The notes below the pieces were generated by a model, which worked only from the letters and a program-made list of their open reading frames with translations, was not told where the DNA came from and ran no database searches. A stretch of DNA of 42,228 nt, taken from an uncultured Gammaproteobacteria bacterium (GTDB lineage: Bacteria; Pseudomonadota; Gammaproteobacteria; DRJJ01). Location: NCBI GenBank assembly GCA_947258795.1, contig CAMYJU010000021.1, positions 1-42,228 of the forward strand, given 5' to 3'. Positions 20,201 to 31,388 of the stretch are shown piece after piece (position 1 is the first letter of the stretch; each line of letters begins with the position of its first letter). The translations under genes were made by a program, and so were the position numbers.

Positions 20201-21339
20201 AGTCGTCCTTCCTCTATCTCAATCGCCACCTGACCCAGGCGCTGGCTACGGCGGGTACGGTCTTTGATATTACCCACCAGTTGTCCGCAGGCAGCATCCA
20301 CATCATTGCCACGGGTTTTTCTTATAATGGTTACGATACCCGCTTCGGTTATGCGGTTACGGAAATACTCCATGGTCTGCTCAGTGGAACAGGTATAGGG
20401 TGTTCCCGGATACGGATTAAAAGGTATCAGGTTCAGCTTCGCAGGAACAGTGCGCAACAGACGAATCAATTGCTCGGCATGTTCCGGTTTGTCATTAACA
20501 CCGGCCAGCATGACGTATTCAAAAGTTACCCGGCGACGGGGCTTGCCCTCGACATAACGCCGGCAGGCGGCCATCAATTGCTTGATCGGGTATTTTTTGT
20601 TTATCGGTACCAGCTCATTGCGCAGCTCATCATTGGGTGCATGCAGGGAAACAGCCAGGCTGACATCAGTCAGCTCGCGCATCCGTTCCAGTGCCGGTAC
20701 GACACCTGAGGTGCTTAGGGTTATCTTGCGTTTGGATATACCGAACGCGTAGTCCTCGGTCATGACATCGATCGCACGTATCACATTATCAAGATTCATC
20801 AGCGGCTCACCCATGCCCATCAGCACGATATTGGTGATGACATGTTCGCCGCGATTTTCACTGCGGCCGATGCGATCGGTTGCAAACAGGATCTGACCGA
20901 CGATCTCGGCAGTGGACAGGTTGCGATTGAAGCCCTGGGTAGCGGTTGAACAGAAGGTGCAATTCAGGGTACAGCCAACCTGGCTGGATACACACAGCGT
21001 CGCCCGGTCGGTCTCCGGGATATAAACGGTTTCGATCGCATTGCCGCTGTCGACACGTAGCAGCCATTTGACCGTGCCATCGGCAGACGGATGTTCCTCG
21101 ATACATTCAGGCAAAGTAACCCCGGCCTCCTGTGCCAGTTTGGCGCGCAAGGCCTTGCTGAAGTTGGTCATCTGCTCAAAATCATAGACACCTTCGTGAT
21201 AAATCCATTTCAGCAACTGTGTGGCACGGAATGACTTTTCGCCCTTTTCGGCAAAATAGGTCTCCAGCTCCGGCCTGTTGAAATCAAGCAGGTTGGTCTG
21301 TGTATGTGTCTCAGCCACGTTTAACTCTCGCCGTTGCAT
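20197..21339 (-). CDS. rlmN: Dual-specificity 23S rRNA/tRNA adenine C2-methyltransferase RlmN
   Basis: Radical SAM enzyme making m2A2503 in 23S rRNA and m2A37 in some tRNAs. The cluster-binding motif CTLNCTFC has Cys123, Cys127 and Cys130. The two mechanistic cysteines are present: Cys116 (TLCVSSQVG) and Cys351 (DAACGQL). The GMGEPLMN glycine-rich SAM site and the N-terminal RNA-binding helices ([16 protein letters not shown]) are clear. Length 380 is normal. A GTG at codon 8 preceded by GAGAG is an alternative start. First gene of the block running to der; a terminator separates it from the isc operon upstream. Confidence 0.97.
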
Positions 21340-21445
21340 GCATCTGCCACTGTTGTGCCGGATACATTCAATCCGGCTCCCACACCATACTCGGTACCGC
21401 CGTTTCGCAGCTACAATCGTATGGCTCGCTACAATCAGCCTATTC

Positions 21446-21480
21446 TAACAAAATAAACCCGCGTAGATCGCGGGTTTATT
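21446..21480 (-). terminator. Intrinsic terminator of the isc operon
   Basis: A 12-bp perfect stem AATAAACCCGCG (21452-21463) / CGCGGGTTTATT (21469-21480) has a 5-nt loop; on the minus strand it is followed by a T-rich TTTATTTTG. It lies 125 nt after iscX and about 110 nt before rlmN, on the transcript reading out of isc. Confidence 0.88.
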
Positions 21481-21604
21481 AAAATTATCATAAAGTTAGA
21501 ACTCATCCAGCGCGGCACTGTGAAGCCCTTCCCAAACCCGACCGGCCGCCCGGTCTGTTTTTGCCTGAAAATTCAACTCACTGTTTTTATTGTATTTATC
21601 CAGG

Positions 21605-21805
21605 TCAGTCTTGCTCTTCCAGCCAGGCCATCTGGATCGCCTCAAGGATTTTCTCGCCTGAGTGCTCCGGATCGTCATCAAAATCCTCCAGTTCCATGAC
21701 CCATTCGCGTAGTTCGGTAAAACGGACCTGCATCGGATCCACATCCGGGTATTTTTCTTCGAGCTCGATCGCAATATCCTGTGTATCTATCCATTTCAGA
21801 CCCAT
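21605..21805 (-). CDS. iscX: Fe-S cluster assembly protein IscX
   Basis: Small acidic protein (66 residues) that binds IscS and iron and modulates cluster assembly. The sequence is characteristic: LKWIDTQDIAIELEEKYPDVDP, VRFTELREWVMELEDFDDDP and EKILEAIQMAWLEE. The length equals that of E. coli IscX. Last gene of the isc operon, 9 nt after fdx. A longer overlapping frame on the same strand (21496-21774) is not a gene. Confidence 0.96.
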   Translation of the reverse strand: MGLKWIDTQDIAIELEEKYPDVDPMQVRFTELREWVMELEDFDDDPEHSGEKILEAIQMAWLEEQD

Positions 21806-21814
21806 GCTGTCACC

Positions 21815-22153
21815 TCAATGATGTTCAGACACCATGTTAATGGTGTATTTCGGTATCTCTATGACCAGATCAGTATCGCCGACCTTTGCCTGGCAGCTCA
21901 GACGCGAATCCGGCTCCAGCCCCCAGGCCTTGTCGAGCAGGTCGTCTTCGGTCTCGGTCGATTCTTCCAGCGTATCAAAGCCCTCACGCACATAGACATG
22001 ACAGGTGGTGCAGGCGCAGGATTTCTCACAGGCGTGTTCGATCTCGATACCGCCATGCAAGGCCGCGTCACAAATAGTGGTACCCGGCTCTACCTCCAGT
22101 ACCGCCCCTTCAGGACACAGTTCCTCATGTGGCAAGATAATAATTTGTGTCAT
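21815..22153 (-). CDS. fdx: ISC-type [2Fe-2S] ferredoxin
   Basis: Electron donor for Fe-S cluster assembly. With the ATG at 22153 (112 residues) the four ligands are Cys42, Cys48, Cys51 and Cys87 (ACEKSCACTTC, RLSCQA), identical in position to E. coli Fdx. The N-terminus MTQIIILPHEELCPEG aligns exactly with the family. An ATG three codons upstream overlaps the hscA stop but puts AGGA directly against the start codon, so it is less likely. Lies between hscA and iscX. Confidence 0.97.
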   Translation of the reverse strand: MTQIIILPHEELCPEGAVLEVEPGTTICDAALHGGIEIEHACEKSCACTTCHVYVREGFDTLEESTETEDDLLDKAWGLEPDSRLSCQAKVGDTDLVIEIPKYTINMVSEHH

Positions 22154-22158
22154 CAATT

Positions 22159-24042
22159 TCATTCCTGGTCAAATTCACTCACAGCATGCCCTGACATGGC
22201 ACGCTGTATACTGGCGTTCATACGCCTTTCTACATAGGCTGCGCAGACCTTTTCGAGGCCGGCAATATCTTTCTTGATCGTTTCAGGGCGGTCTGATCCG
22301 GCACGGGTCCTGATCAGATTCTGCAAAGCCTGTTCGATCTGCTGACGCTCGCTTGCATCCAGATAATCATCGGCATCTTCGGCCATCGCGGCCTGTAATG
22401 CCTCGATTACCCTGTCCGCCTCGACCTGTTGTTCGCGCAAGCGTCGCGTTTCCATATCATCCTGCGCATGATCCATGGAATCACGCAGCATGGATTCGAT
22501 CTCGGTATCGGTCAAACCATAAGAGGGCTTGACCTCGATACCACTTTGCGCGCCGCTGGTCTGTTCCTGCGCGGTAACGCTGAGCAGGCCGTCGGCATCC
22601 ACCTGGAAGGTGACGCGAATGCGGGCGGCGCCGGCCACCATCGGCGGGATGTCATGCAGCGCGAAGCGTGCCAGTGAACGACTGTCCTCTACGGTCTCGC
22701 GCTCACCCTGTAGCACATGGATCGACATCGCGGTCTGGCCATCCTTGTAGGTGGTGAACTCCTGTGCCTTGGCAACCGGAATGGTGGTATTACGATGGAT
22801 AAGCTTTTCCACCAGACCACCCATGGTCTCCAGACCCAACGATAACGGAATCACATCCAGCAGCAGCATTTCGTCGTCCGGCTTGTTACCAGCCAGCACA
22901 TCGGCCTGGCGTGCCGCACCGATTGCGACCACCTTGTCCGGGTCGATATTGACCAGCGGATCCCGATCAAAAAACGTTCTGACCCGTTCCCGTACCTGTA
23001 ACACGCGGGTGGAGCCACCGACCATGACCACCTCATTGATCTGGTCCACAGTCACACCGGCATCACGGAGGGCACGACGGCATGGACTCAGGGTCTTGCT
23101 GATCAACGGATCGATCAGGGCATTCAGCTGTTCACGCGTCAGCACGCTGCTCCAGTCCTGGCCATTTTCCAGCGCTACACTGAGCTCGATCTGTTCCTGC
23201 CCGGTCAGGGCCTCCTTGGCAGACCGCGCCAGCTTCATCAATTGCCGGAACAGGGCCGGCCCCGGGTTCTGATCCAGCCCGGCCTGTTCAATCAGCCAGC
23301 GCGCGATAGCCATATCCATGTCGTCCCCACCGAGCGCCGAGTCACCGGCCGTGGCCAGTACCTCGAACACACCCTTGTTCAGACGCAGGATCGAAATATC
23401 GAAGGTTCCACCACCGAGGTCGTAGATCGCAAACACCCCTTCGGCGTCATGATCCAGTCCGTAGGCGATCGCCGCCGCGGTCGGTTCGTTCAGCAGACGC
23501 AGCACATTCAGGCCGGCCAGGGTTGCGGCATCCTTGGTTGCCTGGCGCTGGGCCTCGTCAAAATAGGCCGGTACGGTGATCACGGCACCGCTCAGCTCGC
23601 CCCCCAGAGACTGCTGCGCACGGTCTTTCAGGGTTTTCAGGATCTCGGCCGAGATCTCCACCGCGCTAACGTCACCGGCAACCGTGCGGATGCGCGGCAC
23701 CGCTGTATCGGTGTCGACAAATTCGTATGGCAACTGGCTGCCCAGGTGCCTGATATCGGCAACCCCGCGTCCCATCAGTCTTTTCACCGATACGATGGTA
23801 TTATGCGGGTCTTCGGTAGCCTGGTCATGGGCTGCCGTACCAACTATCACGCCGCTATCTTCCAGGTAACGCACCACCGAAGGCAATAAATGCCGATGCT
23901 CGCTATCGGCCAGGGTTTCCGCCTGACCACTGCGTACCGTCGCCACCAGTGAATTGGTCGTACCCAGGTCGATGCCGACCGCGAGACGATGCTCGTGCGG
24001 CGCAGTGGATTCGCCCGGTTCTGATATCTGCAGTAATGCCAT
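22159..24042 (-). CDS. hscA: Fe-S assembly Hsp70 chaperone HscA
   Basis: Specialised Hsp70 that, with HscB, binds the LPPVK motif of IscU and promotes cluster transfer. The 627 residues have the N-terminal ATPase domain with GIDLGTTNS (about 23-31) and [12 protein letters not shown], plus [10 protein letters not shown]. The substrate-binding domain starts near residue 395 ([14 protein letters not shown]) and the helical lid includes [19 protein letters not shown]. The length is close to E. coli (616). Adjacent to hscB and fdx in canonical order. Confidence 0.98.
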
Positions 24043-24088
24043 GCCTGTATCCTGTTGTATGTCCTATGTCTGCCCGACTGTCACCATT

Positions 24089-24628
24089 TTACAGGGCATC
24101 TTCCAGTTCCGCCTCAATAGATTCCGCCTCCTGGCGCAGTTTATAGATAAACTGCAATTGCAGCACCACATCACGTGCCGCATCCAGATCATGTTTAGCA
24201 AAGCATTCCATCAGTTTGCCGGTCAGTTGCCTGATCCAGTCCTGGACCTGATCAAGAATATCACCGGTCACTGACAACGGATCGGTTTGATCACGTACTT
24301 CACTTAATGCCTCACGTAGCTCCATCTGGTGCATCAAAAATTCGGCATCCATGACCGAACTGGTTTGCTCATCCAGCTGGATCTGATTCAGCGAAAGCAA
24401 GTAACGCGCCCGCTGCATGGTATCACGCAGTGTTTCGTAGGCCTCATTGATCCTGGCGGCGTGCTGAACCGACAAACGCCTTTCCTGGTCCGTTGCATTG
24501 ACAAAGCGGTCGGGGTGAACCGCCTGTTGCATCTGACGGTAGCGCGCGGTCAACTGCTGCTGGTCGATGTTGAAATCAACCGGCAATTCAAACAGTTCGA
24601 AATAATTACTGGATAAGATCAGATCCAT
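24089..24628 (-). CDS. hscB: Fe-S assembly J-protein co-chaperone HscB
   Basis: J-domain protein that delivers IscU to HscA and stimulates its ATPase. The J domain occupies about 1-75 with the HPD motif at 38-40 (QAVHPDRFVN). The C-terminal domain is a three-helix bundle (EFLMHQMELREALSEV ... YKLRQEAESIEAELEDAL) that binds IscU. At 179 residues it matches the family (171 in E. coli). Separated from iscA by a 92-nt gap holding a strong hairpin, and from hscA by 46 nt. Confidence 0.97.
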   Translation of the reverse strand: MDLILSSNYFELFELPVDFNIDQQQLTARYRQMQQAVHPDRFVNATDQERRLSVQHAARINEAYETLRDTMQRARYLLSLNQIQLDEQTSSVMDAEFLMHQMELREALSEVRDQTDPLSVTGDILDQVQDWIRQLTGKLMECFAKHDLDAARDVVLQLQFIYKLRQEAESIEAELEDAL

Positions 24629-24645
24629 CAGATGTAGTATTCTGT

Positions 24646-24670
24646 AGACAGGCGCCGGTGGCGCCTGTCT
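24646..24670 (-). repeat. Perfect 11-bp hairpin between iscA and hscB
   Basis: AGACAGGCGCC (24646-24656) and GGCGCCTGTCT (24660-24670) form a perfect stem with a 3-nt loop in the iscA-hscB gap. On the transcribed strand it is not followed by a U-run, so it is more likely an mRNA processing or stabilising element, or an attenuator, than a full terminator. Confidence 0.75.
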
Positions 24671-24720
24671 ATGTCGTCAGTGTCTGATTCAAGCGTCTGC
24701 AATCGACAGGATGTCGGAAA

Positions 24721-25044
24721 TCATACGTTAAAGCTTTCTCCGCAACCACACATGTCCTTGACGTTGGGGTTATTGAATTTGAAGCCTTCGTTGAGTCCTT
24801 CTTTTGTAAAATCCAGCTCGGTGCCATCCAGATATACCAGGCTCTTCGGACTCACGATGATCTTGACTCCCTGGTGCTCAAACACCTGATCGCCTTCCTC
24901 GACCTCGTCTACAAACTCCAGCACATAGGCCATACCGGAGCATCCCGTGGTCTTGACACCCAGGCGCAGACCCTGGCCCTTGCCACGATTTTCGAGAAAC
25001 TTCTTGACCCGGTCGGCCGCAGCCTCTGTTAGTGTAATCGCCAT
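24721..25044 (-). CDS. iscA: Fe-S cluster A-type carrier IscA
   Basis: A-type carrier delivering [4Fe-4S] clusters to apo-proteins. The 107 residues contain the three invariant cysteines Cys35 (TTGCSGMAY), Cys99 and Cys101 (MCGCGESF). Length and N-terminus ([17 protein letters not shown]) match E. coli IscA. Lies 45 nt after iscU in canonical order. Confidence 0.98.
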
Positions 25045-25089
25045 AATACAGTACCCACTATCTACTACCTGTGATACAACATCCGGATA

Positions 25090-25500
25090 TCAGGCGCTTT
25101 GCTGAGTATCGTCCGACGCGTCACCATTTTTGCTCTGATAATCCTCGATGGCAGCCTTAATCGCATCTTCTGCCAGTACCGAACAGTGCACTTTTACCGG
25201 CGGCAGTTCGAGTTCTTCAGCAATCTCGGTGTTCTTGATTTCACGCGCCTGGTCCAGGGTCTTGCCCTTGACCCACTCGGTCAACAGTGAGCTAGACGCA
25301 ATCGCGGAACCACAACCATAGGTTTTGAACCGCGCATCCTCGATAACACCTTCCTGGTTGACCTTGATCTGCAACTTCATCACGTCGCCACATGCAGGCG
25401 CACCCACCATGCCCGTGCCGACTTTGGTGTCTGTTTTTTCAAACGAACCGACATTCCGCGGGTTTTCGTAATGGTCGAGTACTTTATTACTGTAAGACAT
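25090..25500 (-). CDS. iscU: Fe-S cluster scaffold IscU
   Basis: Scaffold on which [2Fe-2S] clusters are built from IscS sulfur. The 136 residues keep all ligands: Cys37, Asp39 (GAPACGD), Cys63 (YGCGSAIASS), His105 and Cys106 (KVHCSVLA). The HscA recognition motif LPPVK is at 99-103. The C-terminus has a short acidic extension (about 8 residues) relative to E. coli. GGAGGG precedes the ATG by 5 nt, predicting strong translation. Follows iscS by 40 nt. Confidence 0.98.
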   Translation of the reverse strand: MSYSNKVLDHYENPRNVGSFEKTDTKVGTGMVGAPACGDVMKLQIKVNQEGVIEDARFKTYGCGSAIASSSLLTEWVKGKTLDQAREIKNTEIAEELELPPVKVHCSVLAEDAIKAAIEDYQSKNGDASDDTQQSA

Positions 25501-25540
25501 GTCTACCCTCCTGAATTAAATCCTGTTTCTCAATAATCTG

Positions 25541-26770
25541 TTAATGAGCCGCCCACTGTACGGTGGAAAGATCGATACCTTCCTTGTACATATCCCAAAG
25601 CGGCGACAACTCACGCAATTTTTCAACCTGGGTTTTCAGCAGTCTGATGGTTTCATCGATATCCTGCTCGGTTGTGTAACGGCCAATGCTGAAACGGATG
25701 GAGCTGTGCGCCAGCTCGTCGTTTCTGCCCAGTGCGCGCAGTACATATGACGGTTCAAGACTGGCTGAGGTACAGGCCGAGCCGGAAGAAACCGCCAGGT
25801 CCTTGATTGCCATAATCAATGATTCGCCTTCAACATAGTTGAAGCTGACGTTCAAATTACCGGCGACACGCTGTTCGAGGTCACCATTAAGATACACCTC
25901 TTCCATCTCCTTGAAACCATTCCACAAGCGGTTCCGCAGACTCAGGATGCGGTCGTTTTCGGTCGCCATCTCTTCTTTCGCAATGCGGAAGGCCTCACCC
26001 ATACCCACAATCTGATGGGTGGCCAGCGTACCGGAGCGCATGCCGCGCTCATGACCCCCACCGTGCATCTGTGCCTCGATACGGGCACGCGGTTTACGCC
26101 GTACGTACAGGGCTCCTATGCCTTTCGGGCCGTACACCTTGTGCGCTGAAAATGACATCAGGTCCACCTTCAGCTGCTGCAGGTCTATCGGGATCTTGCC
26201 GGCACTCTGTGCCGCATCGACATGGAACAGGATGCCGCGTGCACGGGTCAGTTCGCCGATCGCGGCGATATCCTGAATCACGCCAATCTCGTTATTCACG
26301 TGCATGATCGACACCAGCACGGTGTCATCACGCAGGGCCTGTTCCAGTTTGGCAAGGTCGATCAGGCCGTTGTCCTCCGGATCGAGGTATGTGATCTCGT
26401 AGCCTTCACGTTCGAGTTGGCGGCAGCTGTCCAGCACCGCCTTGTGCTCGGTCTTGCAGGTTACGATATGTTTACCTTTTTTCTTGTAGAAATGCGCCAC
26501 ACCCTTGATCGCCAGGTTGTCGGACTCGGTCGCGCCCGAGGTCCAGACGATTTCACGCGGGTCGGCATTGACCAGGCCGGCCACATTCTTGCGCGCCTGC
26601 TTGATCGCCTCGTCCGCCTCCCAGCCATACGCGTGTGAACGCGATGCTGCATTGCCAAAATTGCCATCCATAACCAGATGACTGCACATCACATCTGCGA
26701 CACGCTGATCAACCGGGGTGGTTGCCGAATAGTCCAGATAGATTGGCCGTTTGACTTCGCTCACTGTCAC
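25541..26770 (-). CDS. iscS: Cysteine desulfurase IscS
   Basis: PLP enzyme that takes sulfur from cysteine as a persulfide and passes it to IscU and other acceptors. The 409 residues include the catalytic His109 ([11 protein letters not shown]), the PLP lysine Lys211 ([12 protein letters not shown]) and the mobile-loop Cys333 ([19 protein letters not shown]). The C-terminal IscU-docking tail [13 protein letters not shown] is conserved. It starts with GTG; a second GTG two codons later has better spacing (8 nt) from AGAGG. Very close to E. coli IscS, so it is the true housekeeping IscS, as opposed to the paralogue upstream. Confidence 0.98.
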
Positions 26771-26803
26771 TACCTCTTTAACAAATTGTTAGCTAAACAC
26801 TCA

Positions 26804-26824
26804 CGGGTAAAACCTGTTTACCCG
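26804..26824 (-). repeat. Perfect 8-bp hairpin between the two cysteine desulfurase genes
   Basis: CGGGTAAA (26804-26811) and TTTACCCG (26817-26824) flank a 5-nt loop, 12 nt downstream of the first desulfurase gene's stop on the transcribed strand. No U-run follows. It may separate expression of the paralogue from that of iscS. Confidence 0.65.
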
Positions 26825-26836
26825 GCCATCCTGTTT

Positions 26837-27985
26837 TTACCTTGCCGACATTGCGCTGAAGCGTTTCAGCATATCCAGCTGACCCTGCAAGGCATCACAA
26901 AATCCGTCAATCTCTTCCACACTGGTATCCTTGCCAGTACTCACGCGTATCGCGTTACGTGACAACTCCCTGTCTACCCCCATGGCCATCAACACATGAC
27001 TGGGTTCGTTGCTGCTGCTCGAACAGGCCGAGCCGCTGGAAACGGCATAGCCTTGCTGATCCAGGGTCAGCAACAGGGTCTCGCCATCAATACCCGCAAC
27101 ACCCAGTTGTACCGTGTTCACCACACGCTCTGCATCACGCGCAAACACCGTGACAGCCGGCATTGTATCCAGACGCTCCAGCAATCGGTCCTGTAGCGCC
27201 TGCATATGCTGCCGGCGTATGTCCAACTCAGAGACCGCCAGTTCAGCCGCCTTGCCGAAGCCGACGATCGCGGCGACATTCTCTGTACCGGCACGCAGGC
27301 CTTTCTCATGGCCGCCGCCGAACATCATCGGCACCAGTTCGACGCCCTCGCGCCTGATCAGTGCACCGACCCCCTTGGGACCATACAGCTTGTGCGCTGA
27401 CAGACTGACCAGGTCTACATCTGACAGCAGCGCCGGCAATGGTATTTTACCGGCTGCCTGTACCGCGTCGACATGCAGCATCGCCCCGGCCGCTGCCACC
27501 TGCTGCTTGATCGCCGCTATCGGCTGGATCACACCGGTCTCGTTATTGGCCAGCATCACTGATACCAGCCCGGCACCGCTGTCCAATACTGCCTGTGTGG
27601 CCGCGGTCGATACACAGCCGTTGGCCTGTACCGCTATCTCAACACACTCCGTGCCCTGAGCTGCCAGGTACTGGACCATTTCCAGTACTGACGAATGTTC
27701 AATAGCACTATAAGCCAGTGCAGTGTCCGGTCGTGATCGGATCACACCGGACAGGGCCAGGTTGTTGGCCTCGGTGCCACCGCTGGTGAAAATCACCTGT
27801 GATGGCTGTGCCCCTGTCAGTACCGCCACCTGTTCGCGTGCAACGTCGATCGCGGTGCGGGCGTAGCGTCCCGCCCTGTGTACACTGGACGGATTACCGT
27901 ACACATCCTGAAGATAAGGGCGCATTGCCTCAAACACCCGATCATCAACCCGCGTGGTTGCATTGTGATCGAGATAGGCTGTCAT
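26837..27985 (-). CDS. Second cysteine desulfurase (NifS/IscS-like paralogue) inside the isc operon
   Basis: A 382-residue class V aminotransferase-fold PLP enzyme. It has the catalytic His97 (AIEHSSVLEM), PLP lysine Lys199 (SLSAHKLYGPKG) and active-site loop Cys321 (SSGSACSSSSNEPSHVL), so it should release sulfur from cysteine. It is clearly diverged from the adjacent iscS and lacks the conserved SPLW...EGIDL tail through which IscS docks IscU, ending instead in a short helix. The ATG has AGGAG 5 nt upstream. It sits between iscR and iscS, so it shares IscR control. Similar extra desulfurases at this position occur in some gammaproteobacteria. Its sulfur acceptor is unknown; thiolation or another cluster system is possible. 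Confidence 0.93.
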   Translation of the reverse strand: MTAYLDHNATTRVDDRVFEAMRPYLQDVYGNPSSVHRAGRYARTAIDVAREQVAVLTGAQPSQVIFTSGGTEANNLALSGVIRSRPDTALAYSAIEHSSVLEMVQYLAAQGTECVEIAVQANGCVSTAATQAVLDSGAGLVSVMLANNETGVIQPIAAIKQQVAAAGAMLHVDAVQAAGKIPLPALLSDVDLVSLSAHKLYGPKGVGALIRREGVELVPMMFGGGHEKGLRAGTENVAAIVGFGKAAELAVSELDIRRQHMQALQDRLLERLDTMPAVTVFARDAERVVNTVQLGVAGIDGETLLLTLDQQGYAVSSGSACSSSSNEPSHVLMAMGVDRELSRNAIRVSTGKDTSVEEIDGFCDALQGQLDMLKRFSAMSAR

Positions 27986-28005
27986 ACTGCTCCTGTCATC
28001 ATCAG

Positions 28006-28035
28006 GCGACCGGGGCGTTTACATCCCCCGGTCGC
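28006..28035 (-). repeat. Perfect 10-bp hairpin directly after iscR
   Basis: GCGACCGGGG (28006-28015) and CCCCGGTCGC (28026-28035) form a GC-rich perfect stem with a 10-nt loop; it begins at the iscR stop codon and ends before the ribosome site of the next gene. E. coli has a structured iscR-iscS junction that preserves the iscR message when the rest is degraded; a similar role is inferred here. Confidence 0.75.
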
Positions 28036-28532
28036 TATACCCGTACCCGGCCCGAGTCCGGTTTGTCGTTGAGCGTGACATGGCGCTGACCCGATTTGTG
28101 GTCATCCTGCCGACGGGCAACATCCTGCACGCCATCACGGGCCACGACCTGGGCCAGACTGATACCATTCAGAAACGAATAAATCTGTTCGCTTAAATCA
28201 ACCCAGAGATCATGGGTCAGGCAGCGCTCGTCATCCTGACAGTTACCAAGACCACCACAGCGGGTTGTATCGACCTTCTCATCGACAGCAACAATCACAT
28301 CTGCAACCGGAATCTCGTCTGCATTGCGGCTCAGGGAATAACCCCCACCGGGACCTCGGGTACTGCGTACCAGCCCGGCACGACGCAAGCGGGTAAACAA
28401 TTGTTCCAGGTAAGACAGGGAGATACCCTGCCTTTCAGATATATCAGCCAGGGAGATCGGACCCTTCTCATAATGCAGTGTCAGATCCAGCATGGCTGTG
28501 ACCGCATAGCGACCTTTAGTTGTCAGTCTCAT
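28035..28532 (-). CDS. iscR: Rrf2-family Fe-S-sensing regulator IscR
   Basis: [2Fe-2S]-containing repressor of the isc operon, and activator or repressor elsewhere as apo-protein. The 165 residues have a winged helix (about 1-70; [42 protein letters not shown]) and the cluster ligands Cys92, Cys98, Cys104 and His107 ([20 protein letters not shown]), all conserved. The C-terminus is a charged tail. First gene of the isc operon; an IscR-type operator overlaps its promoter, so autoregulation is expected. The ATG start is the family N-terminus. Confidence 0.98.
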
Positions 28533-28607
28533 TGTGTTTACCTGTGTTTCTGAATATACTTATCGGATTCGCAGGATTGCGAAAATTCCCGAGTAATTCT
28601 GTCAGAT

Positions 28608-28635
28608 ATTATACAATTCCGACTATTTTAGTCAA
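28608..28635 (-). promoter_or_regulatory. iscR (isc operon) promoter
   Basis: On the minus strand TTGACT (28630-28635) and TATAAT (28608-28613) are separated by 16 nt, a near-consensus sigma-70 promoter. It would start transcription about 70 nt before the iscR ATG. Confidence 0.8.
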
Positions 28636-28639
28636 CTAT
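28615..28639 (-). promoter_or_regulatory. Type 1 IscR-binding site over the isc promoter
   Basis: The minus strand reads ATAGTTGACTAAAATAGTC followed by GGAATT, which fits the E. coli type 1 IscR consensus ATASYYGACTRWWWYAGTC-RRSTAT except in the last few bases. The half-sites GACT and AGTC are perfectly symmetric. It covers the -35 box, so holo-IscR should repress. Its left arm touches the cysE stop codon. Confidence 0.85.
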
Positions 28640-29484
28640 TATTTACCCTTGTTTTGATCCGCCTCAGTCTTTTTCGGGTCTTTGTCGGCCGGCGTCTCGG
28701 AGTCTGGCTTATCTTGTTGATTTACATGGGTATCAGCAAAACTACTTAAATCGCAGGAATCTATATCCGGCAGGTTTAGATCGGCAATTTCAGCACCCAG
28801 ACCCTTGATCGCGGCGCACATCTGCTCGAGACGCCCATCGATGGTATGAATATGGTCAAGCATCGAATTGACGGCATTCGCCACCGGGTCGGGCATGTCG
28901 TCATGCATACCATAGGCGTCAAAGCCCAGTTTTTTTGCGATCTCCTCGCGGGTTTTCTGGGACTCACCCTTGCTGGCCTGGACCACATGCCCGGGTACAC
29001 CGACCACTGTGGCCGCTTCGGCGACATCCTTGAGCACTACCGAGTTTGAACCGATACGCGCCATATCGCCGACATTGACCGGGCCCAATATCTTCGCGCC
29101 GGCACCGACCACGACATTGTTGCCCAGGGTCGGGTGGCGCTTGCCCTTGTTCCAGTGTGTCCCACCCAGGGTAACGCCGTGATACAGCGTGCAATCGTCA
29201 CCGATTTCAGAGGTTTCACCAATCACGATACCCATACCATGATCGATGAAAAAACGCCGCCCGATACGTGCACCCGGGTGGATCTCGATGCCGGTCAACC
29301 AGCGCACCAGACCGGATAGCCACCGGGCCAGCCATTTCAGACCCCAGCTATGCAGACGATGAATGCCGCGGTGTGCCCAGATCGCATGCATACCCGGATA
29401 CGAGGTGATAATCTCGAATGCATTCCGGGCAGCCGGATCCCGTTCATATACGATTTTGATATCTTCCCGTATACGATCAAACAT
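28639..29484 (-). CDS. cysE: Serine O-acetyltransferase
   Basis: Acetylates L-serine with acetyl-CoA, the first step of cysteine synthesis. The 281-residue protein is of the short (EpsC-like) type with a small N-terminal helical domain. A left-handed beta-helix of hexapeptide repeats follows ([27 protein letters not shown] with Asp81/His82, [35 protein letters not shown]). The C-terminal ~90 residues are an unusual charged, low-complexity extension ending in Lys/Asp/Glu-rich sequence. Its position directly before iscR is common and links cysteine supply to the desulfurases. GGAGAG precedes the ATG. Confidence 0.96.
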
Positions 29485-29592
29485 GGATGCTCTCCGCTTT
29501 AATGACTGTAACCAGCCAGATCTTGCGTATCATGTACAAAAATCATTCCTTAATAATATTACATTAGCTGTTGTGCAGATAAATATCCCGCC

Positions 29593-30342
29593 TTAGTCCT
29601 GGTTTTTCTGTTTATATAGCCGCTCTATCGCCGTCATGATGCCACGCTGCATTTTTACTTCGCGATTATCCATAGCGGCGCGATTGTACAGATTGCGGAT
29701 GCGACGCATCAGCAACATCGGATTGTCCGGATAGATCATACCCAGTTTGGTCAGCACTGATTCCATATGCGCATACATGCGCTCCATGTTTTCCATCGAC
29801 GCCGGACGTTCCGCCTCATCGATCTTTACCTTTTTGCCCGGCTCCGGTGGTTGCAGATTGCGCAAGGCCATATGCAACTCATAACAAATGACCTGCACCG
29901 AAGCGGCCACGTTCAGCGATGAATACTCCCGGTTACTGGGTATAAAGATATGGTAATGACAGCGCTCCAGTTCCTCATTGGTCAGACCGCTTTTTTCACG
30001 GCCGAACAGGATCGCTACCTTTTCATCCATGCCATGCGCGACAACCCGTTCAGCGGCCTGCCGGGGATCAATCAGGCTGCTGCCCAGACGGCGTTCGCGC
30101 GCACTGGCCCCGAATACCAGACTGCAGTCTTCCAGTGCCTGGTCCAGGTCTGTCACCACCCGCGCCGAGTCCAGCACATCCAACGCGCTGGCTGCACGTG
30201 CCCTGGCCTTGCCTGACGGAAAATCCTGCGGATTGACCAGTACCATATCTCCCAGGCACATGTTCTTCATAGCCCGTGCGGCCGCACCGATATTGCCCGG
30301 GTGCGATGTTTCTACCATTACGATGCGGATATTCTTGTACAT
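29593..30342 (-). CDS. trmJ: tRNA (cytidine/uridine-2'-O-)-methyltransferase TrmJ
   Basis: SPOUT-class enzyme that 2'-O-methylates position 32 of several tRNAs using SAM. The three SpoU motifs are visible: ETSHPGNIGAAARAMKN (11-27), ILFGREKSGLTNEEL (111-125) and IPSNREYSSLNVAASVQV (134-151), which together form the trefoil knot. The C-terminal ~80 residues are the TrmJ dimer extension (MYAHMESVLTKLGMI, MLLMRRIRNLYNRA). Length 249 is normal. trmJ next to the isc region is conserved in gammaproteobacteria. Confidence 0.97.
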   Translation of the reverse strand: MYKNIRIVMVETSHPGNIGAAARAMKNMCLGDMVLVNPQDFPSGKARARAASALDVLDSARVVTDLDQALEDCSLVFGASARERRLGSSLIDPRQAAERVVAHGMDEKVAILFGREKSGLTNEELERCHYHIFIPSNREYSSLNVAASVQVICYELHMALRNLQPPEPGKKVKIDEAERPASMENMERMYAHMESVLTKLGMIYPDNPMLLMRRIRNLYNRAAMDNREVKMQRGIMTAIERLYKQKNQD

Positions 30343-30423
30343 GGGCTGCTACCTTAACGACTGTCAGTGCATGGGGCAAGACGGGATGACCGGAAAACCA
30401 TCCGATTAAAAACAGAGATACAG

Positions 30424-30452
30424 AAAAACAGAACCGGGAACGGCCCCGGCTC
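30424..30452 (-). terminator. Intrinsic terminator after the sulfotransferase gene
   Basis: On the minus strand GAGCCGGG pairs with CCCGGTTC (one G-U) around a 6-nt loop, followed by TGTTTTTC. It lies about 30 nt after the sulfotransferase stop and separates it from trmJ. Confidence 0.8.
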
Positions 30453-30485
30453 TCAACCCAACATAACAATTCGTCGTCGGCTGGA

Positions 30486-31388
30486 TTAATCCAGCCAGAC
30501 TGACAGGTCCTTGTCGATAAGTTCCTGTAACTTGAGTATGTCATCCCGGTATAGTTCTTTTAACGCACTCCTGGTCTCGGGCGATATAGGTGGCGGCTTG
30601 GATGCAAATCTCTTTTTGGCCCTGCGTTTGATGGATTGCGCCATACGCCGGGAAAAAGGTCTTGCCAGTTTAGCCAAATCAAACATCAGACGACGAGCCA
30701 CTCTTTTCGGGAACGAGGAGGTACCCATATCACTCTTGAATTCATCGACCTGGTAGTTGATCGGATAGTCTGTATCCACCCCCAGAAACTCCAGGACATC
30801 CTGAACACATTGCTCCTTTTCCCTGATCCACTCCTCAAACACAATAATTTTCAACTGATTGTCGTCGAACAATGACAGGTATTTTGAAAGATGCTGATAG
30901 TACAGATACGGGTTGAAATGAATATCCTTGAATTCATCAATTACTTTCAGTTGCTCACTGACTGGTAGACTGGTAAAAGGTGCGGGAATAAGGTGGTTCA
31001 TATAGGCCCAGTTATACAGTGAACAGATAGCATCCACCGGGTTTCTTAGCGATACCAGGATTTTCGCATCAGGGATGTGTTTATGGATTCTGTCAGCCGT
31101 ACCGGGGAAGGAAATATAATTCGCGGACGAATCGCCTATCACCTGTTCGTTCTGAACCTCGTTATAGAGATCTCGATAGTCGTCCATGGACCTGATCAAC
31201 TTGTAACCATAGGCCGCATCAAGTTGGGTGTATAAGCCATCAAATGCCGGGTTATCCGGATCAAACGAGAAAAAGCTCGGTTCCTTGACCTTCGGGAAAT
31301 AAATATCCGGATGCTGGGTCAGGCAATGATAGAGATAAGTCGTTCCACACCGGGGCGCCCCGATAAAAAGGAAATTTGGGAGCGTCAT
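30486..31388 (-). CDS. PAPS-dependent sulfotransferase-family protein
   Basis: A 300-residue cytosolic-type sulfotransferase. The 5'-phosphosulfate loop is FLFIGAPRCGTTYLYHCL (about 6-23) and the 3'-phosphate-binding segment is KILVSLRNPVDAICSLYNW. A conserved fold segment (IIVFEEWIREKEQCVQDVLEFLGVD) follows, as in NodH/heparan-type bacterial members. The C-terminus is basic and helical. The acceptor (a glycan, lipid or small molecule) cannot be told. I chose the ATG at 31388, with AGGTGG 8 nt before it, over an ATG nine codons upstream with no ribosome site. It is flanked by an unusual spacer and ends in its own terminator, so it looks like an insertion upstream of trmJ. Confidence 0.9.
   Translation of the reverse strand: MTLPNFLFIGAPRCGTTYLYHCLTQHPDIYFPKVKEPSFFSFDPDNPAFDGLYTQLDAAYGYKLIRSMDDYRDLYNEVQNEQVIGDSSANYISFPGTADRIHKHIPDAKILVSLRNPVDAICSLYNWAYMNHLIPAPFTSLPVSEQLKVIDEFKDIHFNPYLYYQHLSKYLSLFDDNQLKIIVFEEWIREKEQCVQDVLEFLGVDTDYPINYQVDEFKSDMGTSSFPKRVARRLMFDLAKLARPFSRRMAQSIKRRAKKRFASKPPPISPETRSALKELYRDDILKLQELIDKDLSVWLD

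Follow-up and report, generated by a model that had tools for sequence, protein, structure and literature searches.

Cysteine desulfurases are already well known, and a second, predicted catalytically complete enzyme of the group I type is encoded within the isc operon of an uncultured gammaproteobacterium, between iscR and iscS. On sequence grounds, this gene, for which we use the working name nifS2, belongs to a distinct, ancient, IscR-linked clade of proteobacterial enzymes that has apparently gone undescribed as such. Our preferred reading, to which we assign a probability of roughly 0.55, is that nifS2 would act as an IscU-independent persulfide donor that shares an IscR-type promoter with the isc genes and serves thio-modification. 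That the gene outlives IscU is a matter of observation, since it is kept in two genomes with a reduced cluster (G022 and G023) as well as in loci of the SUF type.

The nifS2 gene and its product

The window, i.e. the whole stretch of 42,228 nucleotides that was analysed, carries a complete isc cluster on its minus strand; the genes of this locus run trmJ, cysE, iscR, nifS2, iscS, iscU, iscA, hscB, hscA, fdx and iscX. The intact nifS2 reading frame (26837..27985, minus strand; 382 aa, ATG start) has iscR directly upstream (28035..28532, minus strand; over the TIGR02010 cut-off) and is followed on the same strand by a canonical iscS of 409 aa (25541..26770; over the cut-offs of NF010611 and TIGR02006), iscU (25090..25500; over that of TIGR01999) and, by NCBIfam match, iscA (24721..25044), hscB (24089..24628), hscA (22159..24042) and fdx (21815..22162). 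An iscX-like reading frame of 66 aa (21605..21805, minus strand) closes the series, while cysE (28639..29484, minus strand) is an upstream neighbour conserved in many relatives. In a genome of the same genus (G001, contig C270), nifS2, iscS and the entire isc order are conserved, including rlmN and iscX, the latter in the same place and 55% to E. coli IscX. An Rfam scan of positions 21000-31000 found no family, and the hairpin between nifS2 and iscS folds no better than shuffled sequences (z 1.00).

A sigma-70-like promoter for iscR, nifS2, iscS and the genes behind them (TTGACT-16-TATAAT, 28608..28635, minus strand; 11/12 in the scan) is predicted upstream of iscR. It is overlapped by a palindromic IscR type-1-like site (28615..28639, minus strand, with the match printed on the plus strand), which is the sole site of its kind in the window and shows three mismatches, with 0 expected in shuffles, to what we take to be the type-1 consensus. 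Scanning the coding strand from iscR to iscU revealed no terminator-like site. Promoter, overlapping site and uninterrupted coding strand together make IscR control of nifS2 likely, as the first-pass annotation had proposed in placing the gene under an IscR promoter, and we infer that nifS2 would be co-transcribed with iscR and the isc genes. Between the window's genome and its congener, the dN/dS of nifS2 is 0.084 (iscS, 0.057; cysE, 0.075), indicating a gene maintained by purifying selection. Across six wider genome pairs, nifS2 shares 47-55% identity with the window copy as against 70-80% for IscS, a lower figure that is consistent with fewer docking partners.

Both nifS2 and the neighbouring IscS, which are 39% identical, match the Pfam family Aminotran_5 (aminotransferase class V; PF00266), nifS2 with 259.7 bits at a cut-off of 21.5. 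The AF2 model of nifS2 (pLDDT 89.3) finds Nfs1 and IscS as its top PDB matches. Catalytic His97 (codon 27695..27697), PLP-binding Lys199 (27389..27391) and, in the flexible-loop segment, persulfide-forming Cys321 (27023..27025; all on the minus strand) align with H104, K206 and C328 of E. coli IscS and are invariant in 50/50 clade members, so that the catalytic set noted as intact in the first reading of the sequence holds for the clade as a whole. Yet nifS2 scores below every curated NCBIfam cut-off printed for its matches: those for IscS (TIGR02006, 325.1 against 643.2 bits; NF010611, 337.2 against 548), DndA (TIGR03235, 359.4 against 480), group II SufS (TIGR01979, 157 against 475.1) and NifS (TIGR03402), for which it reaches its best score of 413.4 bits at a cut-off of 530.75.

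An IscR-linked clade of proteobacterial enzymes

Among the 56 genomes of the same class, the window's own included, 40 yield a match at E 1e-40, and 14, again counting the window's genome, have a nifS2-like match of at least 46% identity; a fifteenth (G026, 42-43% identity) joins the nifS2 clade in the tree. Further rows were drawn from 80 named loci and from loci in 199 genomes sampled from the phylum. Together with the E. coli references, this made 185 extracted rows, and the reported tree (an IQ-TREE quick tree with SH-aLRT support) uses 105 of them; one locus, L062, had been dropped from the row set as lying on the same contig as L041. All 50 nifS2 rows fall into one clade (SH-aLRT 100) and the 22 IscS rows into a separate one (98), while NifS and the clostridial and archaeal desulfurases lie outside both, and nifS2 is also set apart from the SufS/CsdA outgroup. 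A tree of 85 rows, pruned of 13 near-duplicates and of seven rows that were odd or had long branches, agrees (nifS2 100, IscS 98). Placed among the IscS, NifS and SufS groups, as the first-pass annotation had advised, nifS2 thus forms a clade of its own rather than a recent offshoot of iscS.

The clade contains gamma-, beta- and alphaproteobacteria and broadly follows these groups, its beta members being Accumulibacter, Azoarcus, Aromatoleum, Thauera and Nitrosospira. With a sufB-linked copy from another proteobacterial class (L187), the window's nifS2 shares 46% identity, i.e. more than the 39% it shares with its own IscS. A single clade-diagnostic residue, Val64, was found, and a plasmid search returned relatives below 60% identity only, mostly nifS (57 records). 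A literature search, in which subscription journals were little covered, found the clade as such described nowhere beyond papers on the isc-suf operon of Rhodobacter; nor does it appear in the available text of PMC8300815 or PMC9628965.

The position of nifS2 is conserved along with its sequence, as had been suspected from the window itself. Its direct upstream neighbour is iscR in 38/50 clade members, the window gene included, and its downstream neighbour is iscS in 31, iscA in 11, sufB in three and another gene or none in five. The full order iscR-nifS2-iscS occurs in 26/50, and iscS directly follows nifS2 in 12 of the 14 same-class genomes with a nifS2-like match. In Nitrosomonas-type loci, where nifS2 lies away from iscR, no informative neighbour was found.

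Several loci keep nifS2 in the absence of its usual company. Both G022 and G023 have cysE-iscR-nifS2-iscA only, lack IscS genome-wide at E 1e-40 and possess SufB, and Methylobacter-type loci likewise have nifS2 without IscS. Two beta loci (L065 and L081) show nifS2-iscA followed by suf genes, with sufS and a SufU-like reading frame, and two further loci (L187 and L208) show nifS2-sufBCDS. Among the SUF operons that can be read throughout—in L064 and L118, the sequence ends after sufB—each has its own SufS, meaning that nifS2 has been retained where SUF took the place of ISC, even with SufS at hand. A role for nifS2 as SUF's own desulfurase was rejected on tree, cut-offs and context.

The closest known arrangement is the isc-suf operon of Rhodobacter and Rhizobiales, for which the accessible portions of two papers describe two cysteine desulfurases (PMC6956336, PMC4618611). 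Like nifS2, the 'IscS' of this operon stands directly behind iscR or heads the suf genes, beside SufS, and loci of this alphaproteobacterial type (iscR-nifS2-sufB or nifS2-sufBCDS; L118, L187 and L208) fall within the nifS2 clade. Going by synteny, the R. sphaeroides protein would be a nifS2 orthologue. In the window, by contrast, the neighbours of nifS2 are iscS-iscU-iscA rather than suf genes.

Two readings can be set aside at this point. As an adjacent paralogue, nifS2 might be a recent duplicate of iscS or a decaying copy, but 39% identity, a separate clade, intact catalytic residues and the low dN/dS refute this, and we attach practically no weight to it. Only slightly more credible is an identity as the NifS of nitrogenase maturation: this is the family that gives nifS2 its highest score, but the score misses the cut-off, the clade is separate and the context is isc rather than nif. 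Moreover, the window's genome encodes two more group I desulfurases, namely the IscS beside nifS2 and, on contig C7, a genuine nifS (649.7 bits, over the NifS cut-off), and because the latter sits beside nifU, nitrogenase maturation has an enzyme of its own; this reading, too, is regarded as refuted.

The docking tail and contacts with partners

In E. coli IscS, residues 376-404 form the 29-residue segment that docks IscU. The corresponding tail of the window's IscS (25544..25630, minus strand, by alignment) is absent from nifS2, and its loss, first remarked on for this one protein, extends to 50/50 members of the clade: past E. coli position 375, these have 3-20 residues with no tail motif, as compared to 29-30 in canonical IscS. 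As a control, the tail was followed in 43 clustered IscS genes other than the window's own, mostly with an upstream reading frame that was script-called nifS2 or nifS and with four added by hand; several come from one genus and are not independent. Taking as canonical any iscU with 69% or more identity to that of the window, the tail is kept in 35/35 IscS proteins encoded near a canonical iscU and lost in 7/8 without one. The tail therefore follows IscU and is a good marker, and its constant absence from the nifS2 clade makes it unlikely that nifS2 uses IscU in the manner of IscS.

The IscS proteins of this control set deserve mention in their own right. Those without a tail, from clusters lacking canonical IscU (L041, L042, L046, L035, L047, L050 and L207), would be natural separation-of-function variants of IscS, and some of them are encoded next to a U-type protein that is only distantly related to IscU (27-34%). 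The single exception, L045 in genome G052, has an intact tail and hscA in the cluster, but a search of its 18 kb locus found no iscU; the gene may be located elsewhere or have been missed by the assembly.

Beyond the tail, the partner contacts of IscS are mapped in PMC2854127, the accessible part of which (Table 3 included) reports that W45R abolishes TusA binding and that Delta374-404 weakens binding of IscU. In the nifS2 clade, the position of W45 is occupied by arginine in 43/50, F89 and R340 are not kept, and R223 and R225 are mostly lost. Thus, nifS2 resembles E. coli IscS in fold, catalytic residues and operon, but differs from it in overall sequence (39-40% identity), in the missing tail and in most of the mapped contacts. 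Arginine at W45 is also found in 12/22 of the other non-IscS group I enzymes, among which short tails are common as well; both traits may hence be ancestral and need not point to a special partner. Seen this way, IscS looks like a specialised branch and nifS2 like a plainer, older type.

Sulfur acceptors and the role of nifS2

As its invariant residues suggest, nifS2 would strip sulfur from cysteine via PLP and carry it as a persulfide on Cys321. Because the protein lacks the surface with which IscS docks IscU, this persulfide most likely passes to acceptors other than IscU, and because the promoter predicted in silico is shared with the isc genes, the level of nifS2 should follow Fe-S status. 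The sulfur would then be used in thio-modification, conceivably with the tRNA 2-thiouridylase MnmA as direct acceptor. Such a route would parallel that of YrvO in B. subtilis, which the available text of PMC5372739 describes as a direct sulfur donor to MnmA; the two desulfurases are likened by description, as enzymes outside the IscU pathway, and differ in that no stable linkage to mnmA was seen for nifS2.

The first-pass annotation had pointed to co-occurrence with acceptors, which for most candidates turned out negative. ThiI is present in 5/63 genomes searched, three of them with nifS2 (G088, G104 and G152), but is absent from the window's genome and from all 17 gamma genomes with nifS2 (0/17), and FdhD (17/63) is likewise absent from the window's genome; both were discarded. 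The DsrC/TusE fold, found in 21/53 gamma genomes, shows no association with nifS2 among them (6/17 with against 15/36 without) and was rejected, too. For mnmA, co-occurrence is there, in 88/90 genomes (30/30 and 58/60, the two misses being incomplete genomes), but a nearly universal gene is not diagnostic, and linkage is rare: only four genomes (G027, G062, G070 and G185) have mnmA on the same strand at 4-7 kb downstream, with iscS in the same clusters. Direct transfer to MnmA is thus the leading, if weakly supported, candidate and is put forward tentatively. Since the window's genome keeps a canonical IscS together with DsrC/TusE-fold proteins, the customary TusA relay may operate there.

Two observations from this search concern other genes. 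In G028 (C48:21677-23937), thiI directly adjoins a group I desulfurase with 37% identity to the window's nifS2, the same arrangement as in the nifZ-thiI pair of B. subtilis. The window's genome itself (G000) has eight DsrC-family matches over several contigs in addition to the nifU-nifS cluster on C7, and judging from these genes, its owner is probably a nitrogen-fixing sulfur oxidiser.

Of the alternatives to a donor for thio-modification, the most serious is that nifS2 supplies sulfur for Fe-S assembly after all. The constancy of its position within operons of the isc or isc-suf type, the adjoining iscA (11/50) or sufB (3/50) and the two desulfurases of the Rhodobacter operon all speak for it, and so does IscS2 of A. 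fulgidus, which also has 382 aa and, going by lengths and entry titles, was crystallised with IscU (4eb5/4eb7), so that contact with IscU in the absence of a tail is possible in principle. Against this stand the retention of nifS2 where IscU is gone, the SufS (in two cases accompanied by a SufU-like reading frame) of the fully readable SUF operons beside it, and a tail that tracks IscU in IscS but never occurs in the nifS2 clade; we consider such a function rather improbable. Far less probable still is that nifS2 has no acceptor of its own and tunes the adjacent IscS as a heteromeric or regulatory partner in mixed dimers. The two are adjacent paralogues in 31/50, and nifS2 is kept even beside tail-less IscS (G015, G026, G030, G039, G041 and G070), but it also occurs without IscS in G022, G023 and the Methylobacter-type loci, and it keeps a full active site.

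In current teaching, IscS is the one hub from which Fe-S assembly, tRNA thiolation and cofactors all draw their sulfur. That a presumably co-regulated nifS2 persists both where IscU is lost and where SUF replaces ISC implies a division of the hub's job in many proteobacteria, and nifS2 and iscS offer a concrete two-gene system for studying how sulfur is shared between acceptors. The same gene is a warning that not every desulfurase linked to isc genes should be annotated as IscS. More speculatively, and with the odds clearly against it, nifS2 might descend from an ancestral proteobacterial, IscR-controlled desulfurase dedicated to tRNA 2-thiolation via MnmA directly, and perhaps to other thio-cofactors, apart from Fe-S assembly, with the E. 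coli-type IscS being a late hub that took over, together with the TusA-E relay, where nifS2 was lost.

Finally, three genomes outside the window's class encode proteins of 1135-1181 aa in which a molybdopterin oxidoreductase is fused to a cysteine desulfurase (PF00266) that is complete and forms the C-terminal part; a literature search found no description of such fusions. The oxidoreductase part is recognised by PF04879, PF00384 and PF01568 in L175 (2416-5823, plus strand), with a weaker PF04879 in L177 (449-3994, minus strand); the third fusion is in L176 (7493-10900, minus strand), the Pfam scan covering L175 and L177. In the tree, the three group in a clade of their own (SH-aLRT 100); they have a cysteine near the C-terminus in common and possibly serve the in-cis sulfuration of the Mo cofactor.
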